NCBI GenBank assembly: GCA_029980465.1
Contig: JARYIJ010000001.1
Coordinates: 2,553,501 to 2,617,500 of the forward strand
Source of the DNA: Pseudolabrys sp.
GTDB lineage: Bacteria; Pseudomonadota; Alphaproteobacteria; Rhizobiales; Xanthobacteraceae
Direction of reading: 5' to 3'
Length of the DNA stretch: 64,000 bases
Shown here: positions 15,855 through 32,494 of the stretch, one piece after another
Numbering within the stretch: position 1 is the first letter of the stretch
How the letters are laid out: every line of letters starts with the position of its first letter
The notes under the pieces: model-generated
Database searches by the model: none
Told to the model about the DNA's origin: nothing
What the model saw: the letters and a program-made list of their open reading frames with translations, nothing else
Position numbers and translations under genes: made by a program

Positions 15855-16469
15855 TCAAAGCGTGACCGGTGCCCAGCACGGAACGACCGCCAGATCGTCC
15901 GGACGGTCCACGTCCTGGGCGATGCGCTGATTGAAATGCAGCCGCGGCGTGACACCGCACCGCCGCGCTTCCGCCTGGTGGCGTCGATAACTGTCGTCAC
16001 CGAACGAGAAGCGTAGCGCTAGGTCTTCCGCAATCAGAAGGGCGTTGGTGCCGACACCCACGCGGTCGGGACTGATGGTTACGGAATGGCCTTCACTGGC
16101 AGTCGCAAGCGCCTGCAGGTCGCGAGCTTCGACGAGCGGCAGGTCGACTGGTAAAATCAGAATTCGGCGGATGCCTTTCTGTCGCAGATCATGACAGCCG
16201 TCGGCGAGGGCGCTGTTGAGATCCTGATGCGCGGTGCGGATACAGTGCGCCCCGAGTTCGGCTGTAAGCATCAAAGTATCATCGGCATCGCTGACTACCG
16301 AGGTGCGAGCAAGACCGGGAAATTCCGTTGCGACCACGATCATGTGGCGGAGGAAGCGCTCGTTGAGGTCTCGCCGCGCTGAGCATGTGAGCACCGTCGC
16401 AAGCCGACTCTTGCCGTAGCAAAGCGACTTCACGGGAATCAGCAACCATGGGGGTTCACGCATGAGCAC
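15855..16469 (-). CDS. cofC: 2-phospho-L-lactate (or PEP) guanylyltransferase, F420 biosynthesis
   Basis: Activates the three-carbon precursor of F420 with GTP, giving lactyl- or enolpyruvyl-2-diphospho-5'-guanosine for CofD. The 204-residue product has the nucleotidyltransferase fold: LLIPVKSLCYGKSRLA near residue 10, a metal-binding LILPVDLPLV near residue 100 and a later ISPDRVGVGTNALLI. It is last in the F420 operon and overlaps the cofD stop by 14 bases, suggesting translational coupling. Whether it uses 2-phospholactate, 3-phosphoglycerate or PEP cannot be read directly; the FbiB-type fusion upstream favours PEP. Confidence 0.93.
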   Translation of the reverse strand: MLMREPPWLLIPVKSLCYGKSRLATVLTCSARRDLNERFLRHMIVVATEFPGLARTSVVSDADDTLMLTAELGAHCIRTAHQDLNSALADGCHDLRQKGIRRILILPVDLPLVEARDLQALATASEGHSVTISPDRVGVGTNALLIAEDLALRFSFGDDSYRRHQAEARRCGVTPRLHFNQRIAQDVDRPDDLAVVPCWAPVTL

Positions 16470-17418
16470 CGTCCGCTATCTGTGCGGCAAGGGCGAGCGC
16501 TACACTGGCGAGTGCCTTCTGGTCGTCCAAGTTTGCCATCACCGTATTTGTGACGGTGACTGATAGACCCAAGCCTTCGATTGCGGGCGCGGTGATTTCA
16601 TCGATGGCATCAATGACCAGGCCATCGATCAATCCGCGGTAATGCTCTGCTATGCCGAGTACCGACACGTCGCGGCCGAGTTCGCGCAGTATTTTCGCGG
16701 CGGGCCCCTTGATCGCTTGGCCACCGACAATCGGCGACACCGCCACTGCAGGCACGCGACGCTGGCGCAGCCATTGCAGTACGCCTGGAATCGACAGGAT
16801 GGGATCGATGCTCAACAAGGGATTGGACGGACAGATGACAATGGTGCGCAGATGGGGATCGGCCATGGCTGCAATAAAGGCGGGCGAGGGGGCGGCCTTC
16901 TCGATACCATCGAAGCTCACCGCGGTGACTGTGGGTGCGCAGCGCAGGCGCACGAAATAATCCTGGAATGCGAGAGTGCCGTCGGTCGTGTGAATGATCG
17001 TGCGCACGCTGTCGTCACTCATCGGCGCGACGTGATGAGCGATACCGAGCTGCCTGCTCAAGTGGCGCGTGACTTCGGATAGCGTTTCGCTGCATGCCAG
17101 CCGCTGTGTGCGCACTACATGAGTAGCGAGATCGCTGTCTCCGAGTCTGAACCAGGTCGGGTCGCCAAGACGTCCGAGCGCGGTCATGAAGTTCCAAGTT
17201 TCGCCCGCGAGCCCCCAGCCACGGATGCGGTCGTTGAGACCGGCAAGCCAGTACATCACGGTGTCGACATCGGGGGAAATGTGGAGGCCGAGATGGATGA
17301 AATCGTCGCCGGTGTTGACGACAATGAGCAGTTCCTCCGGTGGCAGTTGTGAGGCGAGGCCTTGGGCGAGCTTGGCACCACCGACACCGCCAGCCAGGAC
17401 GAGAATCATCTCAGACAT
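16456..17418 (-). CDS. cofD: 2-phospho-L-lactate transferase, F420-0 synthase
   Basis: Transfers the CofC-activated moiety to the deazaflavin Fo to form F420-0 or dehydro-F420-0 (called FbiA in actinobacteria). About 320 residues with the diagnostic N-terminus ILVLAGGVGGAKLAQGL and the substrate loop VICPSNPLLSIDPIL near residue 195. The ATG at 17418 overlaps the fbiB stop by eight bases; the ATG at 17409 is an alternative. Length is normal. It belongs to a five-gene minus-strand F420 operon. Confidence 0.95.
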   Translation of the reverse strand: MSEMILVLAGGVGGAKLAQGLASQLPPEELLIVVNTGDDFIHLGLHISPDVDTVMYWLAGLNDRIRGWGLAGETWNFMTALGRLGDPTWFRLGDSDLATHVVRTQRLACSETLSEVTRHLSRQLGIAHHVAPMSDDSVRTIIHTTDGTLAFQDYFVRLRCAPTVTAVSFDGIEKAAPSPAFIAAMADPHLRTIVICPSNPLLSIDPILSIPGVLQWLRQRRVPAVAVSPIVGGQAIKGPAAKILRELGRDVSVLGIAEHYRGLIDGLVIDAIDEITAPAIEGLGLSVTVTNTVMANLDDQKALASVALALAAQIADGAHA

Positions 17419-18820
17419 CCACGATACGAACGACGTCCTGTATCGGGTGTCGTCGATAGGGCCTGCCGCTATTGGCCGGATAGCCAAGCGTGATCAGCGC
17501 CTGTGGCTCCCACGCGGCGGGCAGCGAAAGCACATCGCGGACCGTGTCGGCGCAAAACAGGGGAGCGCACATGATGCTGGCGCCAAGGCCCTCGGCATGG
17601 GCTGCGAGAAGGATATTCTGCATCGCCATTGCCGTGCTCTGAACGGCCATCTGACGCTCGGCTGCAGCGCGTCGCCTGTCGAGATAGACATCCATGTCTT
17701 CCATGCTAAGGCAAACCAGGATAGCCGCCGGCGCGCTGGTGATGCGGGTGATTGAACGCGCTGTATCTTGGTCGATAATGATAGGGTCATGGCCGTCACG
17801 AGTCCGGTCTTCGCGTAGGCGCTCGGCCATCGCTTGGGCAAGCCGCGTTTTGGCCGCGTCCTTCAGCAGGACGAATCGCCAAGGTTGCCGGTTATGGGCG
17901 GAGGGTGCTGTGATGGCCGCCTCGATAAGGCGCATGATCGCCGTTTCGCGGATCGGAGCGGCCGTGTAGCGGCGGATCGAACGCCGCCGTTTCAGGGTTT
18001 CCTCGAGACTCGCCGGACGAAACAGGTCGATCGCCTTCGGCCGTACAAGGTCGGCAGCGGTGCGGTCGCCGCGCGCGGTGGCGAGGCCGCGCGCAAGCAC
18101 GATCGGTCGGCCTTCGCCGGCCTGACCCATCAGGAGTGAGGCCGCGGAAGCGATCTCGTCGGCGATTGCCACTTCCGTGCTGTGCAGCTTGCGGCCAAAG
18201 AGATCGGGTGCGCCACGCAGATCGGCGAGCGCAGCAACGCCACTCGCGCCAATCGCCACGCCGACGGTGCCGTTGCGGAACGCACGGCCGTGGCTGTCAT
18301 TGATGATTACGCCGACCGAGGCGCCTGTGCGCGCGCGCAATGTCTCGCGCAAACTGGCACAGGTGGCGTCAGGATCTTCTGGCAGTAGCAGGGCAACATC
18401 GTCGGACGCGCCCTGTTCGACATTAGACTGGTCGACACCTGCATTGGCGATCACGAAGCCGAGTCGGTGCGCGACGACGAGTACATCGCGGCGATAGCGG
18501 ACAGTCTCGGTCGACTCGCTCATAATGAGTTCAACCAGACGCGCGTCTTTGTTCACATCGTGCGCCAGCCGCTCGGCCTCGGGCGACGGTATCACCGTAT
18601 CCAGCCGCACCAGCCGGTTCTGCGCCTTGGAGACGATCTTCTGCGCGATAATGAGTACATCGTCGTTACGCAGTTTCTCGTTGGAGGCGGTTAAGGCAGC
18701 GAGAATAATCTCAGCGAGGTCATCGCCCGGCTTGACCAGAGGAACGCCGGCGAGCGCCGAGAACTGTGCCACCGTCGACGGTGCCAAGATGGTCCGGGAC
18801 GGAGATTCGTGCATGTTCAT
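17411..18820 (-). CDS. fbiB: Bifunctional F420:gamma-glutamyl ligase / nitroreductase-like dehydro-F420 reductase
   Basis: 469-residue two-domain protein. The CofE domain (about residues 15-255; NAGVDQSN at 127-134, NDSHGRAFRNG at 174-184) adds glutamates to F420-0. The C-terminal domain (about 278-469; RRRSIRRYTAAPI, HNRQPWRF) is an FMN nitroreductase fold. This order is that of actinobacterial FbiB, whose nitroreductase domain reduces dehydro-F420-0 made from PEP. The fusion therefore suggests the PEP route here. It starts three bases after fno and overlaps cofD. FbiB-like fusions are far better known from Actinobacteria than from Proteobacteria. Confidence 0.94.
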   Translation of the reverse strand: MNMHESPSRTILAPSTVAQFSALAGVPLVKPGDDLAEIILAALTASNEKLRNDDVLIIAQKIVSKAQNRLVRLDTVIPSPEAERLAHDVNKDARLVELIMSESTETVRYRRDVLVVAHRLGFVIANAGVDQSNVEQGASDDVALLLPEDPDATCASLRETLRARTGASVGVIINDSHGRAFRNGTVGVAIGASGVAALADLRGAPDLFGRKLHSTEVAIADEIASAASLLMGQAGEGRPIVLARGLATARGDRTAADLVRPKAIDLFRPASLEETLKRRRSIRRYTAAPIRETAIMRLIEAAITAPSAHNRQPWRFVLLKDAAKTRLAQAMAERLREDRTRDGHDPIIIDQDTARSITRITSAPAAILVCLSMEDMDVYLDRRRAAAERQMAVQSTAMAMQNILLAAHAEGLGASIMCAPLFCADTVRDVLSLPAAWEPQALITLGYPANSGRPYRRHPIQDVVRIVDV

Positions 18821-18823
18821 GGA

Positions 18824-19504
18824 TTACTGCGGCGGTTCTACTGGCAGGCCGGTGATGCGGATGCCAGTGCCGGGCACCTTGTAGCGCATATTCATGGCGA
18901 TCAGGAGCGAGGTGAGAGCCTCCGCTGCCACTGAATTCACGATTGGTCCAGCATGGACGCCGCGCAGGCCGATGTCGGCAGCGAGCCCGATTACCACTTG
19001 GCGCGCCGCCGGATCATCGCCGCAGACGAGCACGTCGCAGTCGATGTTGTGCGCGAGATCCTTGAGGTGATGCGCCGACACGTTCTGGAACGCGGAGACC
19101 ACGCGGACGTTGGCACCGAGCATGATCTGGATCGCCGCGACCGCCGAGCCGGCGGCTGGCAGTTGCACGCGCGCAACCTTGGGCGGCACCAGCGGCACAG
19201 TGGAATCGATAAGGATCTTGCCGGCAAGCGCGTCACGCACCTCTTCGACTGTCTTACGCTGCGCGGCAAAGGGCACCGTGAGCATGACGATATCGGCCGC
19301 CGCAGCGGCCTCCTTGTTGCTCGTGCCGTTGATGTTGCCGGCGCTAAGTGTAGCCTTCATATCGGCCGCTGCCGCCGCTGCTTTCGCTGCGTCGCGCGAG
19401 CCGAGAATGACGCGATGACCCACCTTGGTCCAGCGCAGCGCCAGACCGCTGCCTTCCTGGCCGGTGCCACCAAGGATCGCGATCGTATGGGTCTGGGCCA
19501 TCAC
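18824..19504 (-). CDS. npdG: NADPH-dependent F420 reductase (F420:NADP oxidoreductase)
   Basis: Exchanges hydride between F420H2 and NADP+, keeping the F420 pool reduced. The 226-residue product has an N-terminal Rossmann motif adapted to this family (IAILGGTGQEGSGLALRW), the NADP phosphate-binding segment GSRDAAK, and the C-terminal domain ending near AMNMRYKVPGTGIRITG. It lies between fbiC and fbiB with gaps of eight and three bases. The start may be at 19504 or 19501. Actinobacteria call this enzyme Fno or NpdG. Confidence 0.93.
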   Translation of the reverse strand: MMAQTHTIAILGGTGQEGSGLALRWTKVGHRVILGSRDAAKAAAAAADMKATLSAGNINGTSNKEAAAAADIVMLTVPFAAQRKTVEEVRDALAGKILIDSTVPLVPPKVARVQLPAAGSAVAAIQIMLGANVRVVSAFQNVSAHHLKDLAHNIDCDVLVCGDDPAARQVVIGLAADIGLRGVHAGPIVNSVAAEALTSLLIAMNMRYKVPGTGIRITGLPVEPPQ

Positions 19505-19512
19505 ATACTCCG

Positions 19513-21933
19513 TTAGGAACGGGCGGCGGCGATCACGTCGCTGTTGAGGCGCGCGCGTCGCAGAGCCGGAGTCTGCATAACTGGGTTAAGTGGCGGGCAG
19601 CCGTATGACGCCTGCCGCTGGATCGGTGGTGCCGGTTTATAGAGCGTCGTGCGCTGCTCTGGCCTGCGGCCGATCCCCATAATGATGTCATCCATCGTCT
19701 CAGGCGGCAGTTCCTCGCCATGTGCTGCCCCGGCGGCACGCGAGATACTTTCGTTCATCAGGGTGCCGCCCAGATCGTTGGCACCGGCGCGCAGGCAGGC
19801 TTTGGCGCCTTCGATGCCCATCTTCACCCAGGACACCTGAATGTTCGGCAACACCGGATTGAGCACGAGTCGTGCCACCGCATGCATCAGCACTGCCTCG
19901 CGCCATGTGGGGCCAGCCCGGGCGCGGCCCCTGAGATAGATCGGCGCCTCCATGTGGACGAAAGGCAAGGGCACGAATTCGGTGAAGCCGCCGGTTTTCT
20001 CCTGCAACGTTCGGATCGCGAGTAGATGACGCGCCCAATGCTCTGGTCGCTCGACGTGGCCATACATGATGGTGGCGGTGGTCCTCAGGCCGACGCGATG
20101 CGCAGCCTCGATCACGTCCAGCCATTTCTGCGTGCGCAATTTATCCGGGCAGATGATCGCGCGCACCTCGTCGTCCAGAACCTCCGCCGCTGTGCCTGGC
20201 AGCGAGCCAAGGCCTGCGTCGCGCAGCCGCGCAAGATAATCGGTGACCGACAGATTCAAAGTACGCGCCCCTTGCATCACCTCGAGTGGGGAGAAGGCGT
20301 GCAGGTGTATCTGCGGCACCGCGTCTTTCACTACCCGCAGCACCTCCAGATATGTATAGCCGGTGTAGTCGGGATGGATGCCACCTTGCATGCAGACTTC
20401 GGTGGCGCCACGCGCCCACGCCTCGCGTACACGTCGACCGATCTCCTCGCGGTCTAGATCGTAGGCTGGTCCACGCAAATGGGCCGCCCCTCTGCCTTTC
20501 GAGAAGGCGCAGAAGGCACAATGGTAGGAACAGACATTGGTATAATTGATGTTGCGGTTGACGACATACCGCACGGTGTCGCCACTGACGCGCGCACGGA
20601 CTTCGTCGGCCGTTTGGCAAACCTCGATGAAGTCAGCGTCGCGCGCACCGAACAACTGCACGATCTCCGGCTCGCTCAGCACGTGTCCGTCTGCGGCTTT
20701 GGTCAGCACGTGATCAAGGCTTCGGCGCCGCAGGAGGGGCTGCACGGCAAATGTGGATTTCGCTGGCGGCGAGGCGTCGCCCGAGGCCCAAGCCGAATCG
20801 CGGGCCATGAATTCGCTGTCGGCGACGGCGAGGATCTTGTGGTGGAGGGCAGCATCGGTCCAGCGGTCAAGATCGTGGGCGTAGCTGCGATAGAGCGGTA
20901 GTCGTTGCACCAGTACGCGACCACGCTCGCGCATGTGCGCGGCAAGGGCTTCGAGATGTGGCCAAGGTGCTTCCGGGTTGACGTAATCGGCCGTGATTGG
21001 AGAGATCCCACCCCAGTCATTGATGCCGGCGTTGATCACCTCACCGATCAGATCGGCAGCAAGATTAGGAGGACTCTGGATGCTCATCGTCGGCCCGAAG
21101 ATCAATCGTGCCACGGCCAGCGTCCAGAGCAACTCATCGGCAGAGGCGTTGGGGTACCTGGCCATCGGCGTACCAGGCTTGGCGCGGAACGGCTGGATGA
21201 TGATCTCCTGCAAATGCCCATGCGCCTCGTGCAGATCGCGCAGCGCAAGCAGAGCGGCAATACGTTCGTGCCGGGTCTCGCCGATGCCAACCAGCAGTCC
21301 GCTGGTGAATGGGATTGCGAGGACGCCGGCAGTTTCGATTGTAGCGAGCCGCGCCGCCGGCATCTTGTCGGGTGAACCATAATGGGCGCCGCCGCGTTCG
21401 GAGAGCCGATCAGCGATTTGCTCCAGCATCAATCCCATCGATGCTGCAACGGGACGCAACTTCCGCATCTCCACAGCAGACATGACCCCGGGATTGACAT
21501 GCGGCAAAAGACCAGTCTCCCGCAACACGAGTGCCGCCATAGCTTGTAAGTAATCAATGGTAGTCTCGTAACCGAGTGCGTGCAGCGCCTCTTGCGCCTG
21601 TCGGTAACGCTGTTCCGGCTTGTCGCCGAGCGTGAACAACGCTTCCGTGCAGCCAGCGGCCTCACCGGCGCGCGCGACGGCGAGCACCTCGTCGGCTGAC
21701 ATATAGATCTTTTCGCCACGCCGCGGCGGCCGCGCGAAACTGCAGTAGCGGCAGCTGTCACGACATAGGCGCGTCAGCGGTATGAACACCTTGCGCGAGT
21801 ACGTAATGACATTGCCAAAACCCGCATCGCGAAGTTCTGCCGCACGTCGCATGAGGTATTCTGTATCGTCGACGCTGCCAAGCGCGATAGCTTCCGATCG
21901 GGAAAGGATCGTATCGCCAGTAGGAAGGCTCAT
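19513..21933 (-). CDS. fbiC: FbiC, fused CofG-CofH 7,8-didemethyl-8-hydroxy-5-deazariboflavin synthase
   Basis: Dual radical-SAM enzyme that makes the deazaflavin Fo from tyrosine and the ribityl-diaminouracil intermediate of riboflavin synthesis. About 806 residues. The N-terminal CofG half carries CRDSCRYC near residue 57; the C-terminal CofH half carries CSYHCAFC near residue 470, followed by SKGRG. Both CX3CX2C clusters are intact. The ATG at 21933 is chosen; a GTG lies three codons upstream at 21942. It is first of the biosynthetic genes and follows gntR by about 90 bp on the same strand, so the regulator may share its transcript. The fused form is typical of Actinobacteria; archaea mostly have separate genes. 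Confidence 0.96.
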   Translation of the reverse strand: MSLPTGDTILSRSEAIALGSVDDTEYLMRRAAELRDAGFGNVITYSRKVFIPLTRLCRDSCRYCSFARPPRRGEKIYMSADEVLAVARAGEAAGCTEALFTLGDKPEQRYRQAQEALHALGYETTIDYLQAMAALVLRETGLLPHVNPGVMSAVEMRKLRPVAASMGLMLEQIADRLSERGGAHYGSPDKMPAARLATIETAGVLAIPFTSGLLVGIGETRHERIAALLALRDLHEAHGHLQEIIIQPFRAKPGTPMARYPNASADELLWTLAVARLIFGPTMSIQSPPNLAADLIGEVINAGINDWGGISPITADYVNPEAPWPHLEALAAHMRERGRVLVQRLPLYRSYAHDLDRWTDAALHHKILAVADSEFMARDSAWASGDASPPAKSTFAVQPLLRRRSLDHVLTKAADGHVLSEPEIVQLFGARDADFIEVCQTADEVRARVSGDTVRYVVNRNINYTNVCSYHCAFCAFSKGRGAAHLRGPAYDLDREEIGRRVREAWARGATEVCMQGGIHPDYTGYTYLEVLRVVKDAVPQIHLHAFSPLEVMQGARTLNLSVTDYLARLRDAGLGSLPGTAAEVLDDEVRAIICPDKLRTQKWLDVIEAAHRVGLRTTATIMYGHVERPEHWARHLLAIRTLQEKTGGFTEFVPLPFVHMEAPIYLRGRARAGPTWREAVLMHAVARLVLNPVLPNIQVSWVKMGIEGAKACLRAGANDLGGTLMNESISRAAGAAHGEELPPETMDDIIMGIGRRPEQRTTLYKPAPPIQRQASYGCPPLNPVMQTPALRRARLNSDVIAAARS

Positions 21934-22023
21934 TCGAGGCACCCGAAGGTGTGCATGGCAGAGGCGAAAGACAGATTTTTATGCCCGGCTGCCATCACAC
22001 AAAGCAAGAATCGTGCATTGCCA

Positions 22024-22827
22024 CTATTCGTTGAAACTGCCGAGTTGCATCAACATGTCGGCCACATCCTTGATGTCACCCTGAATCTCGTTGACGACGC
22101 TCAGCCGATCACGCTTGCGCAGCGCAAACAGCAATGCGGTGTGGCGATGCCCTTGCCACAAGGCCTTCTGTCGTGACAGCGACAGCGCTTGGAAGGGGCC
22201 GGTCTGCATCCACAACCCCTCGATCATCGGCAACAGCACTTCCGGCTGCGCTGCGCGATACAGTGTGAAGTGGAAATCCTTGTTGCGGGTGAGGATCTCG
22301 TCGACAGGCGCAGACTTGAGGGCGACGAGCATTTTTTTGTGGTCAGTCTCCAACTGACGCAGCAAGGCATCAGTCATGTTGTCACAGGCGTCGCCAGCGA
22401 CCATGCCCTCGAGCATCTGGCGCACTTGCGTCAGCTCAAAGAACTTGCGACGCGTCATACGCGGCACGATCACCTGCCGGTTAGGGAGCATTTGCAACGC
22501 CTGCTCGGCGATGAGTCTGTTTACTGCCTCCCGTACCGGCATTGCGCTCGTGCCCAATCGGCTGGCAAGCGTACGCAAGCTGACGCCTTCGCCTGGTCGG
22601 AAGCCGCCTGTGATCAAGAGTTGGCGCAGAGTCTGATAGACATGCTGGGAGACCGGCCCTATCGCCGCTGGCGCATCGTTTGTCGTCTTTTTGAGCGGAG
22701 CCGCTTTGGGCATAGCTCGCTTGATTGGCGTCATGAGGTCTTCAACGGCCAGTAGCATCTGCTTGTTTTTCACGCGGTATTGCTCGCAGCTGGATAAACC
22801 AAGAGCAACGGCTGCCCTTTTTGTCAT
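22024..22827 (-). CDS. GntR family transcriptional regulator, FadR/FCD subfamily
   Basis: About 267 residues: an N-terminal basic extension, a winged helix (VYQTLRQLLITGGFRPGEGVS, LRTLASRLGTSAMPVREAVNRL), then an FCD ligand-binding domain (FELTQVRQMLEGMVAG, HFTLYRAA, RHTALLFALRKRD) that usually binds an organic acid through a metal site. The ATG at 22827 is chosen because the open frame further upstream runs through the divergent promoter and its operator-like repeats. It heads the minus-strand F420 genes and faces the M24 catabolic operon, so it is the natural candidate regulator for both. Confidence 0.9.
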   Translation of the reverse strand: MTKRAAVALGLSSCEQYRVKNKQMLLAVEDLMTPIKRAMPKAAPLKKTTNDAPAAIGPVSQHVYQTLRQLLITGGFRPGEGVSLRTLASRLGTSAMPVREAVNRLIAEQALQMLPNRQVIVPRMTRRKFFELTQVRQMLEGMVAGDACDNMTDALLRQLETDHKKMLVALKSAPVDEILTRNKDFHFTLYRAAQPEVLLPMIEGLWMQTGPFQALSLSRQKALWQGHRHTALLFALRKRDRLSVVNEIQGDIKDVADMLMQLGSFNE

Positions 22828-22868
22828 GCTGTGTATTGTAGGCGCTTGACTCCTACTCCGTCCACGGG

Positions 22869-22892
22869 TGTGATCACAGTCTGTGATCACAG
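22869..22892. promoter_or_regulatory. Tandem palindromic operator in the gntR / M24 divergent promoter
   Basis: Two exact copies of TGTGATCACAG at 22869-22879 and 22882-22892; each holds the perfect palindrome TGTGATCACA and their centres are 13 bp apart. They lie 42-65 bp upstream of the gntR start and 48-71 bp upstream of the M24 start. Placement and symmetry fit binding of two GntR dimers that control both directions. The half-sites resemble CRP half-sites, but the spacing is too short for CRP. Confidence 0.75.
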
Positions 22893-22939: not shown

Positions 22940-24073
22940 ATGCGTCGCGAGATCGTCGATAGACAACGGTACGCCATGGCCGGGCGCGGTCTCGATGCAA
23001 TCGTGTGCTGCTCGCCTGAAAACTTCGCTTATACGACTGGCTTCGTCGTTCCCTCGCAAGCGCTGCTGCGGCACCGCCATGCCATGTCGGTTGTCTCGGC
23101 TGATGGCAGCATCGCGCTGTTCGGCGTCGACATGGAAGAGTCAACCATCCACGCCAGGGCGCCGGAGGCTAAACTCGCGGTCTGGGCCGAATTCGACGAC
23201 AACGCGATGGAGGTGCTGGCGGACCTCCTAACGGAACTCGGCCTAGCCCAGGCGCGCATCGGCATCGAACTGGGCTACCTCCCGGCGGCCGACCTCGTCC
23301 GGCTGCAAGCCGCGCTGCCGGCGGCGACCTTCGTCGCCTCCGATGACGTTCTCGCGCGGCTACGCCAGCTCAAAACGCCGGATGAAGTTGCGTTGCTGCG
23401 AAAGCTGTCGCGCATCGCGGACCAAGCGATTGTCGATGCCCTCGCTGCAGTGAAAGGCGGTGACAGCGAAATGGACATCGCCGGGCACCTCACGCGCAAC
23501 GTCTATGCGCTGGGCGCCGAGCAGTTTAAGCTGTTGATCGTCGCTACTGGCGAACGCAGCCAGTTACCGAACGTCGGGCCGAGTGAACGTAGGCTGCAAC
23601 GTGGCGACGTCTGCCGGATCGAGATATTCTCCGTTATTGGTGGCTATCACGCCGGGGTCTGTCGCACCGCCGTGGTACAGGACGCGCCGCCGCACGCCGA
23701 GGAGGTGTGGCGGGTGCTGACGGACTGCAAGCACCTGATCCTGGATCGCATCAAGCCGGGTGCGAGTTGCCGCGAAATCTACGCCGCCTTCATCGAGAAG
23801 CTGACGGCGAAGAACCTGCCGCCAATCTCTTTCGTTGGCCACGGCATCGGGCTGTTCCTTCACGAGAACCCGTATCTCGGCCGCACGCCGATCATCGGCT
23901 CGACCGAGGACGCCGTGCTGGAAGCTGGCATGGTGCTCGGCTTCGAACCGCTCTGCTATCGCACAGGCTATGGGTTTGGAATGCAGAACAAGGACATGGT
24001 GGCAGTGACAGAAACCGGCTGCGAGCTCTTATCCAATTATGCTGACACCGATCGCCTATTGAGGATTGCATAG
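22940..24073 (+). CDS. M24 (pita-bread) family protein, creatinase-like, metal ligands degenerate
   Basis: 377 residues with a creatinase N-terminal domain (1-150) and a pita-bread domain (155-365). The catalytic-region His in GHGIG (300-304) is present, but ligands that aminopeptidase P uses for two metals are changed: the DxG...SDITR region reads RIEIFSVIGGYHAGVCRT (226-243), and the last Glu position reads NKDMV (350-354). Creatinase, a metal-free amidinohydrolase, also departs from the metalloenzymes. So hydrolysis of a small C-N compound is more likely than peptide cleavage, but the substrate is unknown. First gene of the operon facing gntR; the next gene overlaps or abuts its 3' end. 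Confidence 0.88.
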   Translation: MRREIVDRQRYAMAGRGLDAIVCCSPENFAYTTGFVVPSQALLRHRHAMSVVSADGSIALFGVDMEESTIHARAPEAKLAVWAEFDDNAMEVLADLLTELGLAQARIGIELGYLPAADLVRLQAALPAATFVASDDVLARLRQLKTPDEVALLRKLSRIADQAIVDALAAVKGGDSEMDIAGHLTRNVYALGAEQFKLLIVATGERSQLPNVGPSERRLQRGDVCRIEIFSVIGGYHAGVCRTAVVQDAPPHAEEVWRVLTDCKHLILDRIKPGASCREIYAAFIEKLTAKNLPPISFVGHGIGLFLHENPYLGRTPIIGSTEDAVLEAGMVLGFEPLCYRTGYGFGMQNKDMVAVTETGCELLSNYADTDRLLRIA

Positions 24074-24077
24074 CGCT

Positions 24078-25193
24078 ATGCCCGGCAAGATCAAAACAGT
24101 CGCCGTATTGGGAGCCGGCCACGGCGGATGCGCCGCAGCCGCCGATCTCACGGCGCGCGGCTTCACCGTGCGCTTGCATGCGCGGCGCGAGGCCGCGCTC
24201 GCTCCCCTCCGCGCAGCCGGCGGCATCACGGCCCGCGGCGTGCAGGAAGGGATGTTCCCGATCGAGCTGATGACGACGAATGTGGCGGAAGCCATTGCCG
24301 GCGCGGATATCATTATGCTCGTAGTGCCTTCCGTCGCGCATGAGTACTATGCCAAAGCGCTTGCGCCTTTGATCGACGGTAGCGTGCCGATCTTTCTCAA
24401 TCCCGGCCACACCGGCGGCGGCCTGCATTTTCTCAACGAATTGCGGCTGGCGGGCTACCGCGCCCCGGTGAAGACGGGTGAGACCGTGTCGCTTACCTAC
24501 GTCACCCGGATGGAAGGGCCGGCGACAGTCGGCATCTATTCGTACATTCGCAGCCTGCGGTTTGCTGCGCTTCCCGGCTGTTATGCCGACGAGGTGTTTG
24601 CCTCGGTTAACACGCTTTATCCGGAAACGGTCAAGGCCTCGAGCGTGTTGGAAAGCGCGTTGATCAACATGAACGCGGTGTTCCATCCACCAGGGATGAT
24701 CCTCAACGCCGGCTGGATCCAGCGCACCAATGGCAACTTTCTATTCTACAAGGAAGGTGTGACTGACGCGGTTGGGCGCGTCTGTCAGGCAGTTGATAAA
24801 GAACGCCTTGCGGTCGCCAAGGCGCTGGACGTTCCGGCGCGTCCTTTCCTCGATAGTTTCTACGCCGCAGGATTGACTACCCAGGCAGCGCGCGACAGCG
24901 GGTCGATCGCCCGCGCTTGCGAAGAGAGCGAACCAAACAAGACGATCAGGTCGCCGCCTTCGCTCGATCACCGCTATGTGCACGAGGATGTCGGCTATGG
25001 CTTGGTACCTTTCGCTGCATTCGGTCAACTCGCCGGAGTGCCGACCCCTGCGATCGACAGTTTGATCCGGCTTGCCTCGATCGCCACCGGCATCGATTAC
25101 GCCACGCAGGGCCTCACTCTCAGGAAGATGGGGCTCGAAGGCCTGAATATCGAAGCACTGCACCGTTTCATCGAAACTGGCGAAAGGACTTGA
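24078..25193 (+). CDS. NAD/NADP octopine/nopaline dehydrogenase family protein (copy 1)
   Basis: 371 residues: an N-terminal Rossmann domain (VAVLGAGHGGCAAAADL, residues 7-23) and a C-terminal octopine-dehydrogenase helical domain with the family His in MNAVFHPPG (about residue 200). Family members reduce or oxidise the C-N bond of opine-type N-(carboxyalkyl) amino acids. The ATG at 24078 lies just after the M24 stop; the ATG at 24066 would overlap it. A second copy is at 31382. In this operon an oxidising, catabolic role is likely. Not evidence of a Ti plasmid, as no other tumour-related gene is present. Confidence 0.87.
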   Translation: MPGKIKTVAVLGAGHGGCAAAADLTARGFTVRLHARREAALAPLRAAGGITARGVQEGMFPIELMTTNVAEAIAGADIIMLVVPSVAHEYYAKALAPLIDGSVPIFLNPGHTGGGLHFLNELRLAGYRAPVKTGETVSLTYVTRMEGPATVGIYSYIRSLRFAALPGCYADEVFASVNTLYPETVKASSVLESALINMNAVFHPPGMILNAGWIQRTNGNFLFYKEGVTDAVGRVCQAVDKERLAVAKALDVPARPFLDSFYAAGLTTQAARDSGSIARACEESEPNKTIRSPPSLDHRYVHEDVGYGLVPFAAFGQLAGVPTPAIDSLIRLASIATGIDYATQGLTLRKMGLEGLNIEALHRFIETGERT

Positions 25194-25202
25194 GTAAGAA
25201 CC

Positions 25203-26321
25203 ATGGCAGACCAGGTCATCGACAATCTGCGTGCGGAAATGAAGAAGGACCGCTTCGATGCGCTGGTCGCGCATTCGCTGGACAATGCAACGTACACGGC
25301 CGGCTTCCAGGTGCCGAGCCACGCGCAGAATCGCTTCCGTCGGACCATTACCGTGCTTGCGGGTGACCGGTTCGGCTGCCAGATCGTGGTCAACGTCGAG
25401 GAAGCACTGGCACGCGAGAAGTCACGCTTCAAGGATATCCGCAGTTACAACCAGTTCACCGAGAACCCGGCTGATCTGTTGGCCGATGCGCTGATCGAAG
25501 GCGGAGCCGAGAGCGCTCGCGTCGCGATCGAGCTCGATTACCTGCCGGCCATGGACTACATCCGGCTGTGTGAGCGCTTGCCCAAGGCGACGTTCGTACA
25601 CGCGCGCGATCTCTATTTCCGCACCCGCATGGTGAAGACGGATGACGAGATCGCAATCCTCAAGCAGATCGGCGAGCTGACCGAGCGCGTCGTTGCCGAG
25701 GTCATCGCTGGCCTGCGCCCCGGTGTCCGCGAACAGCAGGTCGGCGCCGAGATTATGAATCGCATGCTTGAAGCGGGCGCTGATGCCGTCTCCTATCAGG
25801 TCGGCTCCGGCATCCGCAGCGGAATCATCAACTGCAAGCCGACCGACAAGGTGATCGAAGCAGGCGACGTCGTCCGCATTGAGGTGCTCGGCGACAAGAA
25901 TGGCTATCGCTCCAACGTTACCCGCACGCTGGTCATAGGCAAGCCGACCAAGGAGCAAGAGCAGATCTGGTCGGTGCTCATTGCTGCCCGTGACAAATGC
26001 GAGGCGATGCTGAAGCCGGGGACCCGCGTGCCCGATCTGTGGAGTGCTTATCTCGAAGTATGCCGCGCCCACGATATCGAGCCGTCGCTCAAGTTTCTTG
26101 GTCACGGCATCGGTCGCACGATCCACGAGGAGCCGTACCTCACCGACACTCGACTCGTGGAGCTCAAGCCGGGTGTCACCCACACGATGGAACCGCTCTA
26201 TATGCTGCCTGGACGCATGGGCTTTCACGTCGAGGACATGTACCGCATCACAAATGACGGCTTTGAAAAGATGACTGGCCACCTGATGCCGAACGACAAG
26301 CTGATCGAAGTGGCCGTCTGA
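25203..26321 (+). CDS. M24 family protein, creatinase-like (copy 2)
   Basis: 372 residues, paralogous to the gene at 22940. The metal-ligand region reads RIEVLGDKNGYRSNVTRT (225-242), where the second Asp of the SDITR motif is Asn and the first has moved. The His of GHGIG (300-304), the Glu of MEP (329-331) and the Glu of VEDM (343-346) are kept. This partial ligand set differs from copy 1, so the two may act on different intermediates or form a heteromer. A ribosome-binding site is not obvious. It is nine bases downstream of the dehydrogenase and 17 upstream of the enolase-superfamily gene, in the same transcription unit. Confidence 0.88.
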   Translation: MADQVIDNLRAEMKKDRFDALVAHSLDNATYTAGFQVPSHAQNRFRRTITVLAGDRFGCQIVVNVEEALAREKSRFKDIRSYNQFTENPADLLADALIEGGAESARVAIELDYLPAMDYIRLCERLPKATFVHARDLYFRTRMVKTDDEIAILKQIGELTERVVAEVIAGLRPGVREQQVGAEIMNRMLEAGADAVSYQVGSGIRSGIINCKPTDKVIEAGDVVRIEVLGDKNGYRSNVTRTLVIGKPTKEQEQIWSVLIAARDKCEAMLKPGTRVPDLWSAYLEVCRAHDIEPSLKFLGHGIGRTIHEEPYLTDTRLVELKPGVTHTMEPLYMLPGRMGFHVEDMYRITNDGFEKMTGHLMPNDKLIEVAV

Positions 26322-26338
26322 GAGGAGCAACCCGTATA

Positions 26339-27496
26339 ATGAATATCACGGACGTCGAAACCCATCTGGTCAGCTTGCCGGTACGGCGGCGGCATACCTG
26401 GGCCGGCAACTACAGCCCCGTCGGCCAACGCTATGTGCTGGTTAAGCTGATCCTCGAGGACGGCACCTATGGTTGGGGAGAGGCGCAGGTCTTGAAGGAC
26501 TGGAGCGGCGAGTTCGGCGCGCGCTCGGGCGAGACGCCGGACACGACGCTGACTATCATCAAGGATTATCTCTTCCCTCTGCTCAAAGACGAGGACGTCA
26601 CTCGCTTCGAGCATCTCCATCTCAAGATGGACAAGTTCGTGAAGGGTTACCCTTATGCCAAGGCCGCGCTCGACGTCGCTATGCATGACGCGGTCGGCAA
26701 GCTCTACGGGGTGCCGGTCTACCAGCTTCTCGGGGGCCTGGTGCGTCGCGAGGTCGCGGTCGCGCATTCTATCGGCTTGATGGACACCGAGCCTGCGGTG
26801 AAAGAGGCGCAAGAGGTCTTCGACGAAGGCGTCACCTGCCTCAAGATCAAGGTCGGCATCGATCCAGAGCGTGACGTCGATTTAGTAAAGAAGATCCGTG
26901 CCGCGGTGCCGAAGATGCGTATCCGCGTCGACGCCAACCAGGGTTATCGAAGCTGGAAAGATGCTCTCCAGATCACCAAGCGTATGGCCGAGTATGGCAT
27001 CTGGTTCATGGAGCAGCCGGTCGAAGGGCTGGAAGCGATGGCGCGCGTCGCACAGGCGACTGACGTACCGATTATGGCGGACGAAGGCTGCTGGAACGCG
27101 TATGAACTATTGCGTCTCATCCGCCACGACGCCTGTGAGATGATCTCCTGCTACTACACCAAGGCCGGCGGCTTCCTAAAGGCCAAGTCGCTTCTGTCGC
27201 TCGCCTATACCGCGGGAATCCAGAGTGACGTCAATGGCTCGGCAGAGATGGGCATCGGCAATGCGGCCAACTTGCACGTCGCGGCGGCCAATGCGGCGGT
27301 GACCATTCCGGGCACTATCCCGATCACGCAGACCGCCGAAGTGCAACGCACTCGCATCGCCGGCCACAACTATCTCGACGACCTCATTGACGCTCCATTC
27401 GAATATCGCGACGGCCACCTGATCGTGCCCGACAAGCCCGGGCTCGGCGTTGATATCGATCCGAAGAAGCTCGAGAAGTATAGGGTCGGAGGCTGA
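26339..27496 (+). CDS. Mandelate racemase / muconate lactonizing enzyme family protein
   Basis: Enolase-superfamily enzyme, 385 residues, that abstracts a proton alpha to a carboxylate. Catalytic features seen: K-x-K at 169-171 (LKIKVG), metal ligands D198 (VDANQG), E225 (MEQP) and D248/E249 (ADEG), and K275 in YYTKAGG as the second acid/base. Two lysines facing the site are typical of the MLE/dipeptide epimerase side. It could racemise or dehydrate an amino- or hydroxy-acid piece of the imported substrate. RBS AGAGGAG lies just upstream. Confidence 0.92.
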   Translation: MNITDVETHLVSLPVRRRHTWAGNYSPVGQRYVLVKLILEDGTYGWGEAQVLKDWSGEFGARSGETPDTTLTIIKDYLFPLLKDEDVTRFEHLHLKMDKFVKGYPYAKAALDVAMHDAVGKLYGVPVYQLLGGLVRREVAVAHSIGLMDTEPAVKEAQEVFDEGVTCLKIKVGIDPERDVDLVKKIRAAVPKMRIRVDANQGYRSWKDALQITKRMAEYGIWFMEQPVEGLEAMARVAQATDVPIMADEGCWNAYELLRLIRHDACEMISCYYTKAGGFLKAKSLLSLAYTAGIQSDVNGSAEMGIGNAANLHVAAANAAVTIPGTIPITQTAEVQRTRIAGHNYLDDLIDAPFEYRDGHLIVPDKPGLGVDIDPKKLEKYRVGG

Positions 27497-27500
27497 TCAC

Positions 27501-28502
27501 ATGGCCGTCCGCTTCGGCGTTAGCTTCGACGGATTCGAGAGTACGGTGGCGGCGCTTGACATTGCGCGGCGGGTCGTCGCGGCCGGCGCCCGGCAACTCT
27601 GGATGGCCGAGCACATGGGCTATCGCGAGGCGATGGTCACAAGCATGGGCTTCCGCATGAACGATCCTGGCGCGGTGGTCGTACCCACTGCTGTTTCGCC
27701 GTATCTCTGGCATCCGAGCCCGACCGCTATGTCGCTTGCCACGCTGGCGGAGGTTGGCACGGCGCCGGTCGGCATCGCGGTTGGCGTAGGCAATCCGTTG
27801 TTCCTCGGCGAGTCCGGCAAGACCGTCGATAAGCCAGTCCGTGCGGTGCGGGAATTCGTCGAATGCCTGCGTCTGCTGTGGACCGGCGAGGCCGCCCGAT
27901 ACCAGGGCGAGATGTTCCAGCTCGCTGGAGCACGGTTGGGCTTCAAGCCGCCACAGCCGTTGATCATCTACGTTGCTGCCATGGGTGAGCAGATGCTGGC
28001 GCTCGGTGCGCGTATCGCCGACGGTATTGCACTGTCGGCCGGGCTTTCGGCGCAGTTCTGCAAGGTATCACTCGAGCGCGTCAGTGCGAGCGCGCGTGAG
28101 GCAGGGCGCGACCCCGCCGCACTCCGTCGCGCGTCCTATCTGTTCTTCGCCGTTTCGGAAGACGGCAAGACGGCATTCGATTTGGTGCGGCCGAAGCTCG
28201 CGTTTCTACTACGCAACAAGGCGCTGAAGGAGAACATCGAGACCACCGGTGTGCCGATTGACCAGGAGCGTATCATCGATGCTATCTCGCGCCGCGATAT
28301 GGCAGAGGCGACACGTCTTGTTTCGGACGATGCCGTCGAAGCGTTTTCCATTGCTGGCACGCCGCACGCGTGTCGTGACCGACTGCAGGCGTTTATCGAC
28401 AGCGGTATCAATGAACCGGTGTTAATGGTGATGGGCGAAAGAGCAGAACGCGAACTGGCACTGGCCTTCATCAGTGAGCAGACGAAAAACGCCGCAGCTT
28501 GA
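27501..28502 (+). CDS. LLM-class oxidoreductase, probably F420-dependent
   Basis: 333-residue TIM barrel of the luciferase-like superfamily (MAVRFGVSFDGF start; EHMGYREAM near 35; AVGVGNP near 95; PLIIYVAAMGEQMLALGARIADG near 155). The layout resembles Mer-type and other F420H2-dependent enzymes more than FMN-dependent monooxygenases. The linked F420 biosynthesis operon strongly supports F420 as the cofactor, by context rather than by a diagnostic residue. The ATG at 27501 follows the previous stop by four bases; an upstream extension to 27450 would overlap that gene. Likely the redox step of this catabolic operon. Confidence 0.9.
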   Translation: MAVRFGVSFDGFESTVAALDIARRVVAAGARQLWMAEHMGYREAMVTSMGFRMNDPGAVVVPTAVSPYLWHPSPTAMSLATLAEVGTAPVGIAVGVGNPLFLGESGKTVDKPVRAVREFVECLRLLWTGEAARYQGEMFQLAGARLGFKPPQPLIIYVAAMGEQMLALGARIADGIALSAGLSAQFCKVSLERVSASAREAGRDPAALRRASYLFFAVSEDGKTAFDLVRPKLAFLLRNKALKENIETTGVPIDQERIIDAISRRDMAEATRLVSDDAVEAFSIAGTPHACRDRLQAFIDSGINEPVLMVMGERAERELALAFISEQTKNAAA

Positions 28503-28604
28503 AACCATGCCGAAGCGAGTGAACATGCTGCGTTCGAATTGTCAGTTCTTCCATTCTCGTCCGTGCGGCATCGAGGCCGTCACGACCAGCGCATAGGTCG
28601 CAGA

Positions 28605-29387
28605 ATGGCAGGCGCGCCGCACATCCATATAGAAGACCTTAATCTCCACTATCGTACGAAGGGGAACGGGTCGGTAACGGCGCTACAGGGTGTGACGATC
28701 GACATTGCACCGCGCTCTTTCGTCAGTATCGTCGGACCCTCGGGTTGCGGCAAGACGACGTTGTTGAAAGTGCTGTCGGGCGTTCTGAGGCCATCCAGCG
28801 GCAAAGTGCTACTCGAGAATACGCCGATCGGCGAAACGGATTTGTCCGGCAAGGTCGGGTATGTATTCCAGCGCCCCCTGCTACTGCCATGGCGCACCGC
28901 GCTCGATAATGTGCTACTCACCACCGAGATCGCCCGAAAGGATATGCCGCTGGCGCAGCGCAAGGCCGAGGCGCGCGAATGGTTGAAGCTCACAGGCCTA
29001 GCGGGATTCGAGGATCGCCTCCCGCACGAACTATCCGGCGGCATGCAACAGCGTGTTTCTTTGTCGCGTGCGCTTGCCTTCCGCCCTTCGATCCTGATGA
29101 TGGATGAGCCGTTCGCCGCGCTCGACGAGATCACGCGCGAAACGATGCAGGAAGAGCTGCTCCGGCTCTGGAGCGTAACCGAGAGCACGGTCATCTTCAT
29201 TACTCACAGCATCAGCGAAGCCGTATTACTGTCCGAGCGCGTGATCGTGATGACCGCACGTCCGGGTCGTGTCGACGAGATCATCGATATTCCGTTCCCT
29301 CGGCCGCGAGATGAGGAGCTGCGCGGCCGACCAGAGTTCACCAGTCTGGTGCAGCACATTCGTCACAAGCTTCATCCGAGAGTGTAG
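28605..29387 (+). CDS. ABC transporter ATP-binding protein, NitT/TauT (SsuB) type
   Basis: 260 residues with Walker A GPSGCGKTT, Q-loop VFQRPLLLPW, signature LSGGMQQRVSLSRAL, Walker B ILMMDEPFAALDE and the switch His in FITHSISEA. Family members drive uptake of nitrate, taurine, alkanesulfonates, thiamine-pyrimidine precursors and similar small molecules. The ATG at 28605 is preferred over the open frame from 28539. It is followed by its permease and binding protein. Confidence 0.93.
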   Translation: MAGAPHIHIEDLNLHYRTKGNGSVTALQGVTIDIAPRSFVSIVGPSGCGKTTLLKVLSGVLRPSSGKVLLENTPIGETDLSGKVGYVFQRPLLLPWRTALDNVLLTTEIARKDMPLAQRKAEAREWLKLTGLAGFEDRLPHELSGGMQQRVSLSRALAFRPSILMMDEPFAALDEITRETMQEELLRLWSVTESTVIFITHSISEAVLLSERVIVMTARPGRVDEIIDIPFPRPRDEELRGRPEFTSLVQHIRHKLHPRV

Positions 29388-29403
29388 ATGGGGTCGGTGT
29401 GAC

Positions 29404-30180
29404 ATGAAGAACACCTTGGCTCGCATCGCCGGTCAGATCGGCGTATTCTTCGCTTTCTTCGCGCTTTGGGAGCTGGCGGTCGACCTTCTGCATGTGAAGC
29501 CGGTGATTTTGCCGCCGCCGAGCATGATCTTCGTCTCGATGGTCAAGCATTGGCTTTATCTCTTGCAGAACTCGTGGCCGACCTTCCTCGCGGTCAGCTT
29601 CGGCTTCGGCATTGCCGCGGTGCTCGGATTTGTCATCGCGATTGGTATTGCCTATTCGCGTTGGGTGAGTGAACTCACTTACCCGTTCCTGATCGCCGCG
29701 CAGGTTATTCCGAAGGTCGCGCTGGCGCCGCTGTTCCTCATCTGGTTTGGCTTTGGTTTGGCGCCCAAGGTGGTGATCGCCGCGCTGATTGCCTTCTTTC
29801 CCATCGTCATCAACACCGCGCGTGGACTGATGTCGGTTGAGCCAGAATTGATCCAGTACATGCGGTCACTTGGCGCGAATTGGCGAGAGATCTTCTTCAA
29901 GATCAGCCTGCCGTGGGCGCTTCCCTATATCTTCGCTTCGTTCCGCATCTCGATCACGCTCGCGGTGGTCGGTGCGGTGGTCGGCGAGTTCGTCTCGTCC
30001 GATACCGGGCTTGGTTATGTGATTTCGTATGCCAATACGTCGCTCGACACGGACGTCATGTTCGCCGGTATCTTCGTCTTGAGCGTTCTTGGTATGCTGC
30101 TTTTCCTCGTCGTCGTCTTGATCGAACGTCTCTTTCTCTCTTGGCAGGCCGCCGTTGAAGGCACGCCCGAGACGATGTGA
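29404..30180 (+). CDS. ABC transporter permease, NitT/TauT (SsuC) type
   Basis: 258-residue inner-membrane protein with about six transmembrane segments and the EAA loop LMSVEPELIQYMRSLGANWREIFFKISLP that contacts the ATPase. The start at 29404 (MKNTLARIAGQIGVFFAFF) is chosen over 29269, which would overlap the ATPase gene. It lies 16 bases after the ATPase gene and is completed by the binding protein that follows. Confidence 0.93.
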   Translation: MKNTLARIAGQIGVFFAFFALWELAVDLLHVKPVILPPPSMIFVSMVKHWLYLLQNSWPTFLAVSFGFGIAAVLGFVIAIGIAYSRWVSELTYPFLIAAQVIPKVALAPLFLIWFGFGLAPKVVIAALIAFFPIVINTARGLMSVEPELIQYMRSLGANWREIFFKISLPWALPYIFASFRISITLAVVGAVVGEFVSSDTGLGYVISYANTSLDTDVMFAGIFVLSVLGMLLFLVVVLIERLFLSWQAAVEGTPETM

Positions 30181-30232
30181 GGATGTTGTCGGCTGGAAAT
30201 CCCAGTACATTCAACAAGTGGGAGGACATACG

Positions 30233-31198
30233 ATGCTAAGTCGAGTTTTGCTTGCTGTCATCGCGCTTACCGGCATCAGTGCCGCGCCGGCCTACGCGCT
30301 CGATAAGGTCACGCTTCGACTCGATTGGGTCTACGGCTCGGAGCATGCGCCGATCTTCCTTGCGCGCGACAAGGGTTTCTTCAAGAAGGAGGGTATTGAT
30401 CTCACCATCCTACCAGGCCAAGGCTCGACCGTGACTGTGAAGCTTGTCGGCAACGGCAACGAGGAGTTCGGCTACGCTGCCGCCGACCAGGGCCTTATGG
30501 CCTATGCCAAGGGCCTGCCGGTCGTCTCGACTGCGGTCATCCTGCAGAAAAACCCAGGCTCGATCATCTTCCCGAAGTCGACCGGTATCAAGAAGCTCAC
30601 CGATCTCTACGGCAAGACGCTCGGCGTGCCGTTCCTGAGCGTCGGCGAGAAGCAGTGGCGCTATGTGGAGAAATTCAACAAGATTGACGCCAGCAAGATC
30701 CACGAAGTTGCCACCGACCGCAATATCGCCGCCATGATCGAGGCGAAGAAGGTTGACGCTGCCATCGCCTTCTTTTTCAACGACGGACTCAAAGTTGAAT
30801 CGGACGGTACGCCGATGGACTGGATCTTGATGTCGGACGTTGGGCTGCCGATCTATTCGACGGCGCTGATTACGAACGAGAACGTAATCAAGAAAAATCC
30901 TGACCTGGTGAAGCGCTTCACCAAGGCCTTCGTCGAGGGCTGGACGTATTCGCTGACGCACGAGAGGGAGGCGCTAGATGCCTTCCTCAAAGGTAACCCG
31001 ACCGTCGATCCGAAATATTCGGCGATGAAGCTGCCCGAGGTGCTCAAATTGACCCAGACCGAAGACACGCAAAAGCACGGCATCGGCTATTCGACACCTG
31101 AGAAATGGGAAGCCATGCAGAAGGCGCTGCTCGACATGGGCATCATGACGACGCCGGTCGAAATCTCGAAAGTATTCACTAATAAGTTTCTGCCGTGA
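30233..31198 (+). CDS. ABC transporter substrate-binding protein, NMT1/THI5-like
   Basis: 321-residue periplasmic protein. Signal peptide: MLSRVLLAVIALTGISAAPAYA. The mature part starts DKVTLRLDWVYGSEHAPIFLARDKGFFKKEG, the usual NMT1 opening, and ends near WEAMQKALLDMGIMTTPVEI. Start 30233 is supported by GGAGG eight bases upstream. The ligand is unknown; the downstream enzymes suggest a nitrogen-containing organic acid. A hairpin without a T tract follows at 31229. Confidence 0.93.
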   Translation: MLSRVLLAVIALTGISAAPAYALDKVTLRLDWVYGSEHAPIFLARDKGFFKKEGIDLTILPGQGSTVTVKLVGNGNEEFGYAAADQGLMAYAKGLPVVSTAVILQKNPGSIIFPKSTGIKKLTDLYGKTLGVPFLSVGEKQWRYVEKFNKIDASKIHEVATDRNIAAMIEAKKVDAAIAFFFNDGLKVESDGTPMDWILMSDVGLPIYSTALITNENVIKKNPDLVKRFTKAFVEGWTYSLTHEREALDAFLKGNPTVDPKYSAMKLPEVLKLTQTEDTQKHGIGYSTPEKWEAMQKALLDMGIMTTPVEISKVFTNKFLP

Positions 31199-31381: not shown

Positions 31382-32494
31382 GTGCTGTCCAGTCCGATCC
31401 GAACTGTCGCGATCATCGGCGCCGGCAACGGCGGCTGCGCCGCGGCGGTCGATCTGACTCAGCGCGGCTTTGACGTCCGCCTCTACGGGCGCAGCGTCAC
31501 GACTGTCGCTCCGTTGCAGGCGCGCGGCGGCATTGCCCATGAGGGTGTGCTGGGTGATGGCTTCACTGATGTCCCACTGATTACCACTGAGCCAGCGGAC
31601 GCAATGCGGGGCGCTGACGCGGTTATCCTCATGGGGCCAACACAAGCGCATGTAAGCATGGCGAAGACTGTCGCGCCGCACCTGCATCCCGAGCAGATTC
31701 TATTCGCAGCCCCTGGTCATACGCTCACTCTACTGCCGTATACATTGCGTCAGTATGGGCATACCGAGCCGGTCATCTGCGAGTCGGCAACGCTGCCATA
31801 TATCTGTCGCAAGGTCGCAGACGGTCGCATCAGAATATCGCGCAAAGCCGCAGTGATGAGGTTTGCAGCCTTTCCGGCGACTCGCACTGCTGAACTGGCC
31901 GCCCGGTTGCAGCCGTTGTTTCCGGCTATTTCACCGGTTCCCACGCTGCTCGACACTGTGTTTCCCTACACCAACGCAATCCATCATCCGGCAGCGCTCT
32001 TATGCAATATCGGCCGTGTTGAATCCACCGGTGGCGATTTTTATCATTACTATGAAGGGATCACGCCGTCAGTCGGTCGCATCATCGATGCGCTTGATGG
32101 CGAGCGTCGTACGCTAGCGGCGGCATTTGGTTGTCACGTGGATAGCCTCGCCGACTACTTTTTTCAGATCGGGTATACGAATGATGCCGGCCAGGACGGC
32201 GGAACTGCCTATTCCACATTTCACTACAGTGAGCCCAATCGCTGGATTAAGGCGCCATCCTCGATCGACCATCGTTTCTTCAACGAAGATATTCCGTACG
32301 GTCTGATGCTACTGACCGAACTTGCTGCGCTCGCAGGCGTACCTATGCCGACAGCCGATGCTGTCATCGCACTTGCGTCGATTGCCGCCGGCAAGTCGTA
32401 TCGGGAGACTGGGTTGACATTGGAAAAAATGGGCATCTCCGGGTTTTCGGTCGAGCGACTGCGCGCGCTCCTCGAACGCGGCTACGGGAGCTAG
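31382..32494 (+). CDS. NAD/NADP octopine/nopaline dehydrogenase family protein (copy 2)
   Basis: 370 residues from a GTG start. Rossmann motif VAIIGAGNGGCAAAVDL at about 9-25, helical C-terminal domain with the His in TNAIHHPAAL near 200, and the family segment SEPNRWIKAPSSIDHRFFNEDIPYGL, very like copy 1 (SLDHRYVHEDVGYGLVPF). It is separated from the transporter by about 180 bp and the hairpin, so it may have its own promoter. Having both copies near one importer suggests two related opine-like substrates or stereoisomers. Confidence 0.85.
   Translation: MLSSPIRTVAIIGAGNGGCAAAVDLTQRGFDVRLYGRSVTTVAPLQARGGIAHEGVLGDGFTDVPLITTEPADAMRGADAVILMGPTQAHVSMAKTVAPHLHPEQILFAAPGHTLTLLPYTLRQYGHTEPVICESATLPYICRKVADGRIRISRKAAVMRFAAFPATRTAELAARLQPLFPAISPVPTLLDTVFPYTNAIHHPAALLCNIGRVESTGGDFYHYYEGITPSVGRIIDALDGERRTLAAAFGCHVDSLADYFFQIGYTNDAGQDGGTAYSTFHYSEPNRWIKAPSSIDHRFFNEDIPYGLMLLTELAALAGVPMPTADAVIALASIAAGKSYRETGLTLEKMGISGFSVERLRALLERGYGS

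Follow-up and report, generated by a model that had tools for sequence, protein, structure and literature searches.

Operators of the FadR subfamily of GntR regulators have been described as GT-N(2-3)-AC, or more fully TKGT-N(2-3)-ACMA, while HutC sites have 4 bases between, and divergons with two sites at a constant distance were read as cooperative control of both operons (PMC4494728). It is known as well that Atu1419 of Agrobacterium fabrum, from the VanR group, recognises the 10-bp palindrome ATGTATACAT, each bound by one dimer (PMC7797058), and that NanR of E. coli packs three dimers cooperatively on close repeats (PMC8012715). For McbR of E. coli K-12, the reported sites are AT-rich with ATATAT (PMC13343897).

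The window analysed here (the whole stretch of DNA, 64,000 nucleotides) contains two copies of TGTGATCACA, identical 10-bp palindromes at 22869-22878 and 22882-22891 (no strand is assigned to either), with a start-to-start period of 13 bp. Each copy is part of the 11-mer TGTGATCACAG (22869-22879 and 22882-22892), and the window reads ...GCTTGACTCCTACTCCGTCCACGGG-TGTGATCACA-GTC-TGTGATCACA-GTTTGAAC..., so that the two exact copies 13 bp apart picked out in the initial annotation are present as described. A lone copy would be unremarkable, since base composition predicts 1.7-2.7 single copies per genome. The exact word was found twice in the window (0.04 expected), a count reached by 0 of 100 dinucleotide shuffles, and the whole 3.77-Mb genome holds only this pair, with 0 copies of the reversed control word. 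Two copies at 13-bp spacing in a divergent spacer have an expectation of approx. 1e-10, in agreement with the earlier judgement that chance occurrence is low. Copies with up to 2 mismatches number 18 in the window where 21 are expected, which is the chance level, and this means that the signal is the exact pair alone. A genome-wide regulon in this genome was rejected, as there is no second doublet at fewer than 3 mismatches.

The presumed binder is encoded beside the pair on the minus strand, at 22024-22731 (reading frame open to 22977). It belongs to the FCD regulators (FadR subfamily), with PF00392 (GntR, 3e-14) and PF07729 (FCD, 9.6e-18) both over the curated cut-offs, the GntR winged HTH being N-terminal and the FCD domain C-terminal. 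A search for related loci with the GntR protein as the query gave weak matches only. The pair does lie in the divergent gntR/M24 spacer, as first annotated; the length of 112 bp given for that spacer is doubtful, because it assumes a gntR ATG at 22827, which stands only 7 bases past the -10-like TACAAT and would leave 60 residues before the HTH, compared with approx. 25 in the 50% identical orthologue of locus L120 (where the regulator start is preceded by GGAG). A gntR start near 22731, with a spacer of approx. 208 bp, is for these two reasons more likely, and the exact promoter geometry is as uncertain as this start.

Toward the M24 operon, we presume a -35 box TTGACT (22846-22851, plus strand, read from the letters), 17 bp before TGTGAT (22869-22874), which is the start of palindrome 1 and would be the -10 hexamer that this palindrome overlaps. 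As TGTGAT matches the -10 consensus at only 4/6 positions, the promoter assignment is tentative, and the automatic promoter scan did not report the TTGACT/TGTGAT pair because its -10 has no A at position 2. Toward gntR, TGGACG-18-TACAAT (22835-22864, minus strand) is promoter-like by consensus match only, and the palindromes sit just upstream of it. Around 67 sites in relatives, TTGACA-like hexamers (at least 5/6) cluster at 15-19 bp before the palindrome (41 matches, compared with 7 of a control word), so the palindrome would usually cover the promoter spacer and the -10 region.

The first gene of the divergent operon encodes an M24/creatinase-like protein (22940-24073, plus strand), followed on the same strand (24066-28502) by an octopine-type dehydrogenase (24066-25193), a second M24 protein, an enolase-superfamily protein and a luciferase-like protein that is nearest to the F420-dependent Mer. 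After the operon, at 28539-31198 on the plus strand, come the ATPase, permease and substrate-binding protein of an ABC transporter; homologous ABC operons in relatives carry the doublet. Beyond the transporter genes, a second protein resembling the opine dehydrogenase of 24066-25193 is encoded at 31382-32494, and two ring-opening amidohydrolases of the cyanuric acid hydrolase/barbiturase family (32934-33977 and 35893-36966; above the TIGR02714 cut-off, below the AtzD equivalog cut-off) flank an ornithine-cyclodeaminase-like gene and an XRE regulator. A HyuA/HyuB-like pair (47809-51662; hydantoinase/oxoprolinase type, by sequence impression and similarity only) is located in a long series of genes for catabolism and transport, from 28 to 63 kb.

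Conservation in homologous promoters had been set beforehand in the initial annotation as the check on which its reading could fall, and when it was run the sites proved to be kept across families. In the first sample (top GntR matches in 60 related genomes, own locus included), exact TGTGATCACA stood beside the gene in 13/18 homologues with at least 33% identity, compared with 0/12 more distant FCD-GntR genes (Fisher p = 9e-5). It was upstream of the gntR homologue at 12 of these loci and just downstream at 1, and this last locus also has a one-mismatch copy upstream. The remaining 5 of the 18 homologues lacked the exact word, one of them having a one-mismatch copy only, and the reversed control word was never seen near the GntR homologues of this sample. 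The second sample of 30 loci was collected by a profile of motif-bearing members and is hence conditioned on the motif, with 7 loci repeating the first sample (own locus included); here all loci except one had exact TGTGATCACA no farther away than 500 bp upstream or 300 bp downstream. Together with the restriction of the doublet to one regulator clade (see below), the contrast between close and distant homologues supports the proposal that these are GntR sites.

In 100 relatives, the doublet itself was searched as TGTGATCACA-N3-TGTGATCACA, allowing up to 3 mismatches, and besides the own genome this returned four genomes of the same genus (G001, G003, G015 and G016; 2-3 places each) and one three-mismatch match in another genus, while the reversed-word control in the same search gave no matches. 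The same-genus doublets precede a GntR homologue and an enolase-M24 operon whose M24 protein is 69-71% identical; G001 and G016 have a further one ahead of an ABC operon that includes a luciferase-like gene. When 297 genomes of the order were searched blindly for the pattern, allowing no more than 1 mismatch in the 18 specified bases, 12 doublet places turned up beyond the own genome, and 10 of them lie near GntR homologues that the profile had found independently. By chance approx. 2 places are expected (55/4^18 x roughly 2.6e9 positions), and this is also the number of doublet-like places (in G289 and G342) for which no homologous regulator was found within the 12-16 kb inspected.

The most informative relative is L120 (genome G130, another family of the order), a true orthologous cluster with a divergent regulator that is 50% identical. 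Its luciferase-type, enolase-type, M24b, opine dehydrogenase and M24a proteins are 67-75% identical in conserved order, and the orthologue of the first M24 gene (69%) has the same operator in front of it: the L120 spacer contains CTGTGATCACA-GTG-TGTGATCACAG, two perfect copies with a 13-bp period, and outside the doublet stretch the two spacers align poorly.

More remote regulators, 37-40% identical, were found on plasmids of Aminobacter aminovorans, Aminobacter sp. MSH1, Shinella sp. WSC3-e and Phyllobacterium zundukense, each of which has the 13-bp doublet in three places, the inner 16 bases containing one mismatch. Three of the four plasmids have it in a GntR/cytosine-deaminase-like divergon, where an opine dehydrogenase-DpsA-amidohydrolase operon begins, and after a GTP-binding-protein gene; in Shinella and Phyllobacterium, an ABC transporter operon comes next after this last place. 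The MSH1 doublets belong to the GntR divergon and two substrate-binding-protein genes, the opine-dehydrogenase promoter being outside the stretch read. In the plasmid loci L136 (1922-11450), L137 (2027-11462) and L140 (1809-11449), from Aminobacter, Shinella and Phyllobacterium, we observed a common three-doublet regulon, composed of an opine dehydrogenase-DpsA-amidohydrolase-isochorismatase operon, a divergon of a cytosine-deaminase-like gene and gntR-RidA, and the place after the GTP-binding-protein gene. In Skermanella there is a single site, and at the locus of the Rhizobium sp. SL42 regulator (37%) no site was found.

Within doublet-type loci, the second match (up to 3 mismatches) around an exact site lies at 13 bp in 17/18 counts and at 27 bp once, whereas around exact sites elsewhere the distances scatter and 13 bp never occurs; the 13-bp distance is the same in all doublets despite varied spacer lengths and gene contexts. 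In a tree of 45 regulators, in which several rows have long branches, all ten doublet regulators fall into one clade (support 96/87, 95% of bootstrap trees), the single-site regulators are outside it, and the sister clade carries a lone palindrome. In that sister clade (L071-L100), gntR often has a lone TGTGATCACA on each side, upstream and just after the gene. A longer N-terminal region as the mark of the doublet clade is unsupported, since single-site relatives are similar.

From these results we consider it highly probable that the adjacent FCD-GntR regulator uses the pair as its operator; it would repress the divergent operon and probably its own gene, probably through two dimers side by side. 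To hypothesize, when the inducer is absent, one regulator dimer would occupy each TGTGATCACA; the sites over the -10/start region of the M24 promoter would block RNA polymerase at the M24 operon, and their position just upstream of the gntR promoter would keep gntR expression low or self-limiting. The regulator would then be released by a metabolite derived from the imported substrate, allowing expression of the M24-opine dehydrogenase-M24-enolase-luciferase-type operon and the ABC transporter. With a fixed period of 13 bp, which is approx. 1.24 helical turns and by calculation puts two dimers roughly 86 degrees apart, the dimers could touch and bind together, and the fixed spacing and degenerate second copy suggest such cooperative binding.

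This degeneracy is best seen in 27 distinct doublets, which were selected on the inner 16 bases and not the outer ones, and turned so that the better copy is on the right; the selection flatters the inner 16 bases and the orientation step favours the right copy. So compared, conservation is 89-100% throughout the right copy; the left copy has background values at its outer two bases (26% and 30%) and 81-100% elsewhere. The consensus is NNTGATCACA-N3-TGTGATCACA, which means that the doublet is asymmetric in most relatives, with one copy minus its outer two bases; full symmetry is seen in the window and in L120. Because of this loss, the second site may be weak or unused. The same loss, and the inner arms kept in every doublet, could also speak for a composite operator, a 19-bp dyad TGATCACA-N3-TGTGATCA in which one dimer instead of two binds through the two inner arms. 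We regard this as improbable, as the sister clade uses a lone 10-bp palindrome (so that 10 bp already make a complete site), all ten positions are kept in the stronger copy, the window and L120 have both copies intact, and the choice of doublets by their inner positions itself favours the inner arms.

A little less probable still is activation of the M24 operon by the regulator through the same operator, or regulation of its own gene only. FCD regulators can activate or repress, and the sites do lie between both promoters. Their location on the -10/start side of TTGACA promoters is nevertheless typical of repression and favours it for the M24 operon, and doublets also precede operons without the regulator gene.

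We find it very unlikely that another regulator, such as a CRP/FNR-type protein or an unlinked GntR, owns the sites and the local GntR is a bystander. TGTGA and TCACA are indeed also CRP half-sites; CRP, however, needs TGTGA-N6-TCACA, and with gaps of 0 and 13 the arms here have the wrong spacing, so a CRP-type site was rejected. The absence of a further copy in the genome argues against a global regulator, and the site follows this GntR subfamily through genomes of differing gene content. A chance repeat without function is ruled out by conservation, as a genome of this size would by chance have about two copies of such a 10-bp palindrome, but not two perfect copies with fixed spacing kept across families in an orthologous promoter.

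Directly downstream of gntR and on the same minus strand, the window contains, in an alphaproteobacterium, a complete F420 biosynthesis set (cofGH, npdG, cofE, cofD and cofC, 15855-21942). The gap from gntR to cofGH is approx. 80 bp, and the set is possibly co-transcribed with gntR; if they form one transcript, the operator would also touch the cofactor supply. In six other genomes carrying cofH (G130, G016, G001, G248, G285 and G015) this gene sits elsewhere, and no exact TGTGATCACA was found near it in flanks of roughly 1.5 kb, so that any control of the F420 genes would have to be peculiar to this genome, and as such it is speculative. We hold as doubtful the wider idea that an FCD clade has a fixed asymmetric operator NNTGATCACA-N3-TGTGATCACA on which two dimers are forced to pack about a quarter turn apart, and that the same switch here drives both F420 synthesis and a putative F420-dependent catabolic operon. 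If true, such a switch would make the cofactor supply substrate-inducible.

The switch itself is probably real but fairly ordinary. It would give an operator word and geometry to an FCD-GntR subfamily that is widespread in one alphaproteobacterial order (the plasmid homologues point to Hyphomicrobiales), and as a doublet beside such a regulator marks a likely member promoter, regulons could be read from sequence. The joining of M24, enolase-superfamily, opine-dehydrogenase and ABC-transporter genes in one regulon would narrow the search for pathway and inducer, and the 13-bp doublet clade and its single-site sister clade are a natural pair for the origin of cooperative operators. In the open-licence literature searched, from which subscription journals are mostly absent, no paper appears to tie TGTGATCACA, TTGTGATCACAA or GTGATCAC to a GntR protein; this hints, weakly, at a motif that is new in an otherwise familiar type of regulation.

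Compared with described systems, the locus resembles FadR-subfamily operators in its GT...AC palindrome, its FCD regulator and its divergon with two sites at a constant distance, and differs from them in that GT and AC are 4 bases apart (GTGATCAC), which is HutC spacing instead of 2-3, and in that the word is not TGGNNNNNCCA (PMC4494728). The form GT-GATC-AC in both copies and in the relatives thus departs from GT-N(2-3)-AC, in agreement with the first impression that the half-site is unlike the FadR core, while the general GntR operator NyGTNxACNy does accommodate TGTGATCACA with x = 4. McbR (YncC) of E. coli supplies the solved structure closest to the regulator family profile (4p9f, E 2e-44), yet the regulator reaches 92.6 bits against PRK11414, the McbR equivalog and the nearest NCBIfam one, where the cut-off is 225 bits, and no NCBIfam equivalog is reached. 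AlkR of Pseudomonas aeruginosa resembles the switch proposed here as an FCD repressor (VanR group) with a palindrome over -10 elements, released by a pathway metabolite; unlike here, it has a single site, ATTGTCAGACAAT, with a 3-base centre (PMC12042122). NanR shares the FCD regulator and the closely repeated sites, but its direct GGTATA repeats are less than half a turn apart and are absent here on direct reading, where whole palindromes stand 13 bp apart; NanR also needs an N-terminal extension, and N-terminal regions are present in our regulators, though in the single-site clade too (PMC8012715). The likeness to Atu1419 is in the two 10-bp palindromes of a divergent promoter, one of them overlapping the -10, whereas its copies, of another word, stand 190 bp from each other, with a tetramer bridging them and looping the DNA, compared with 13 bp at this locus (PMC7797058).
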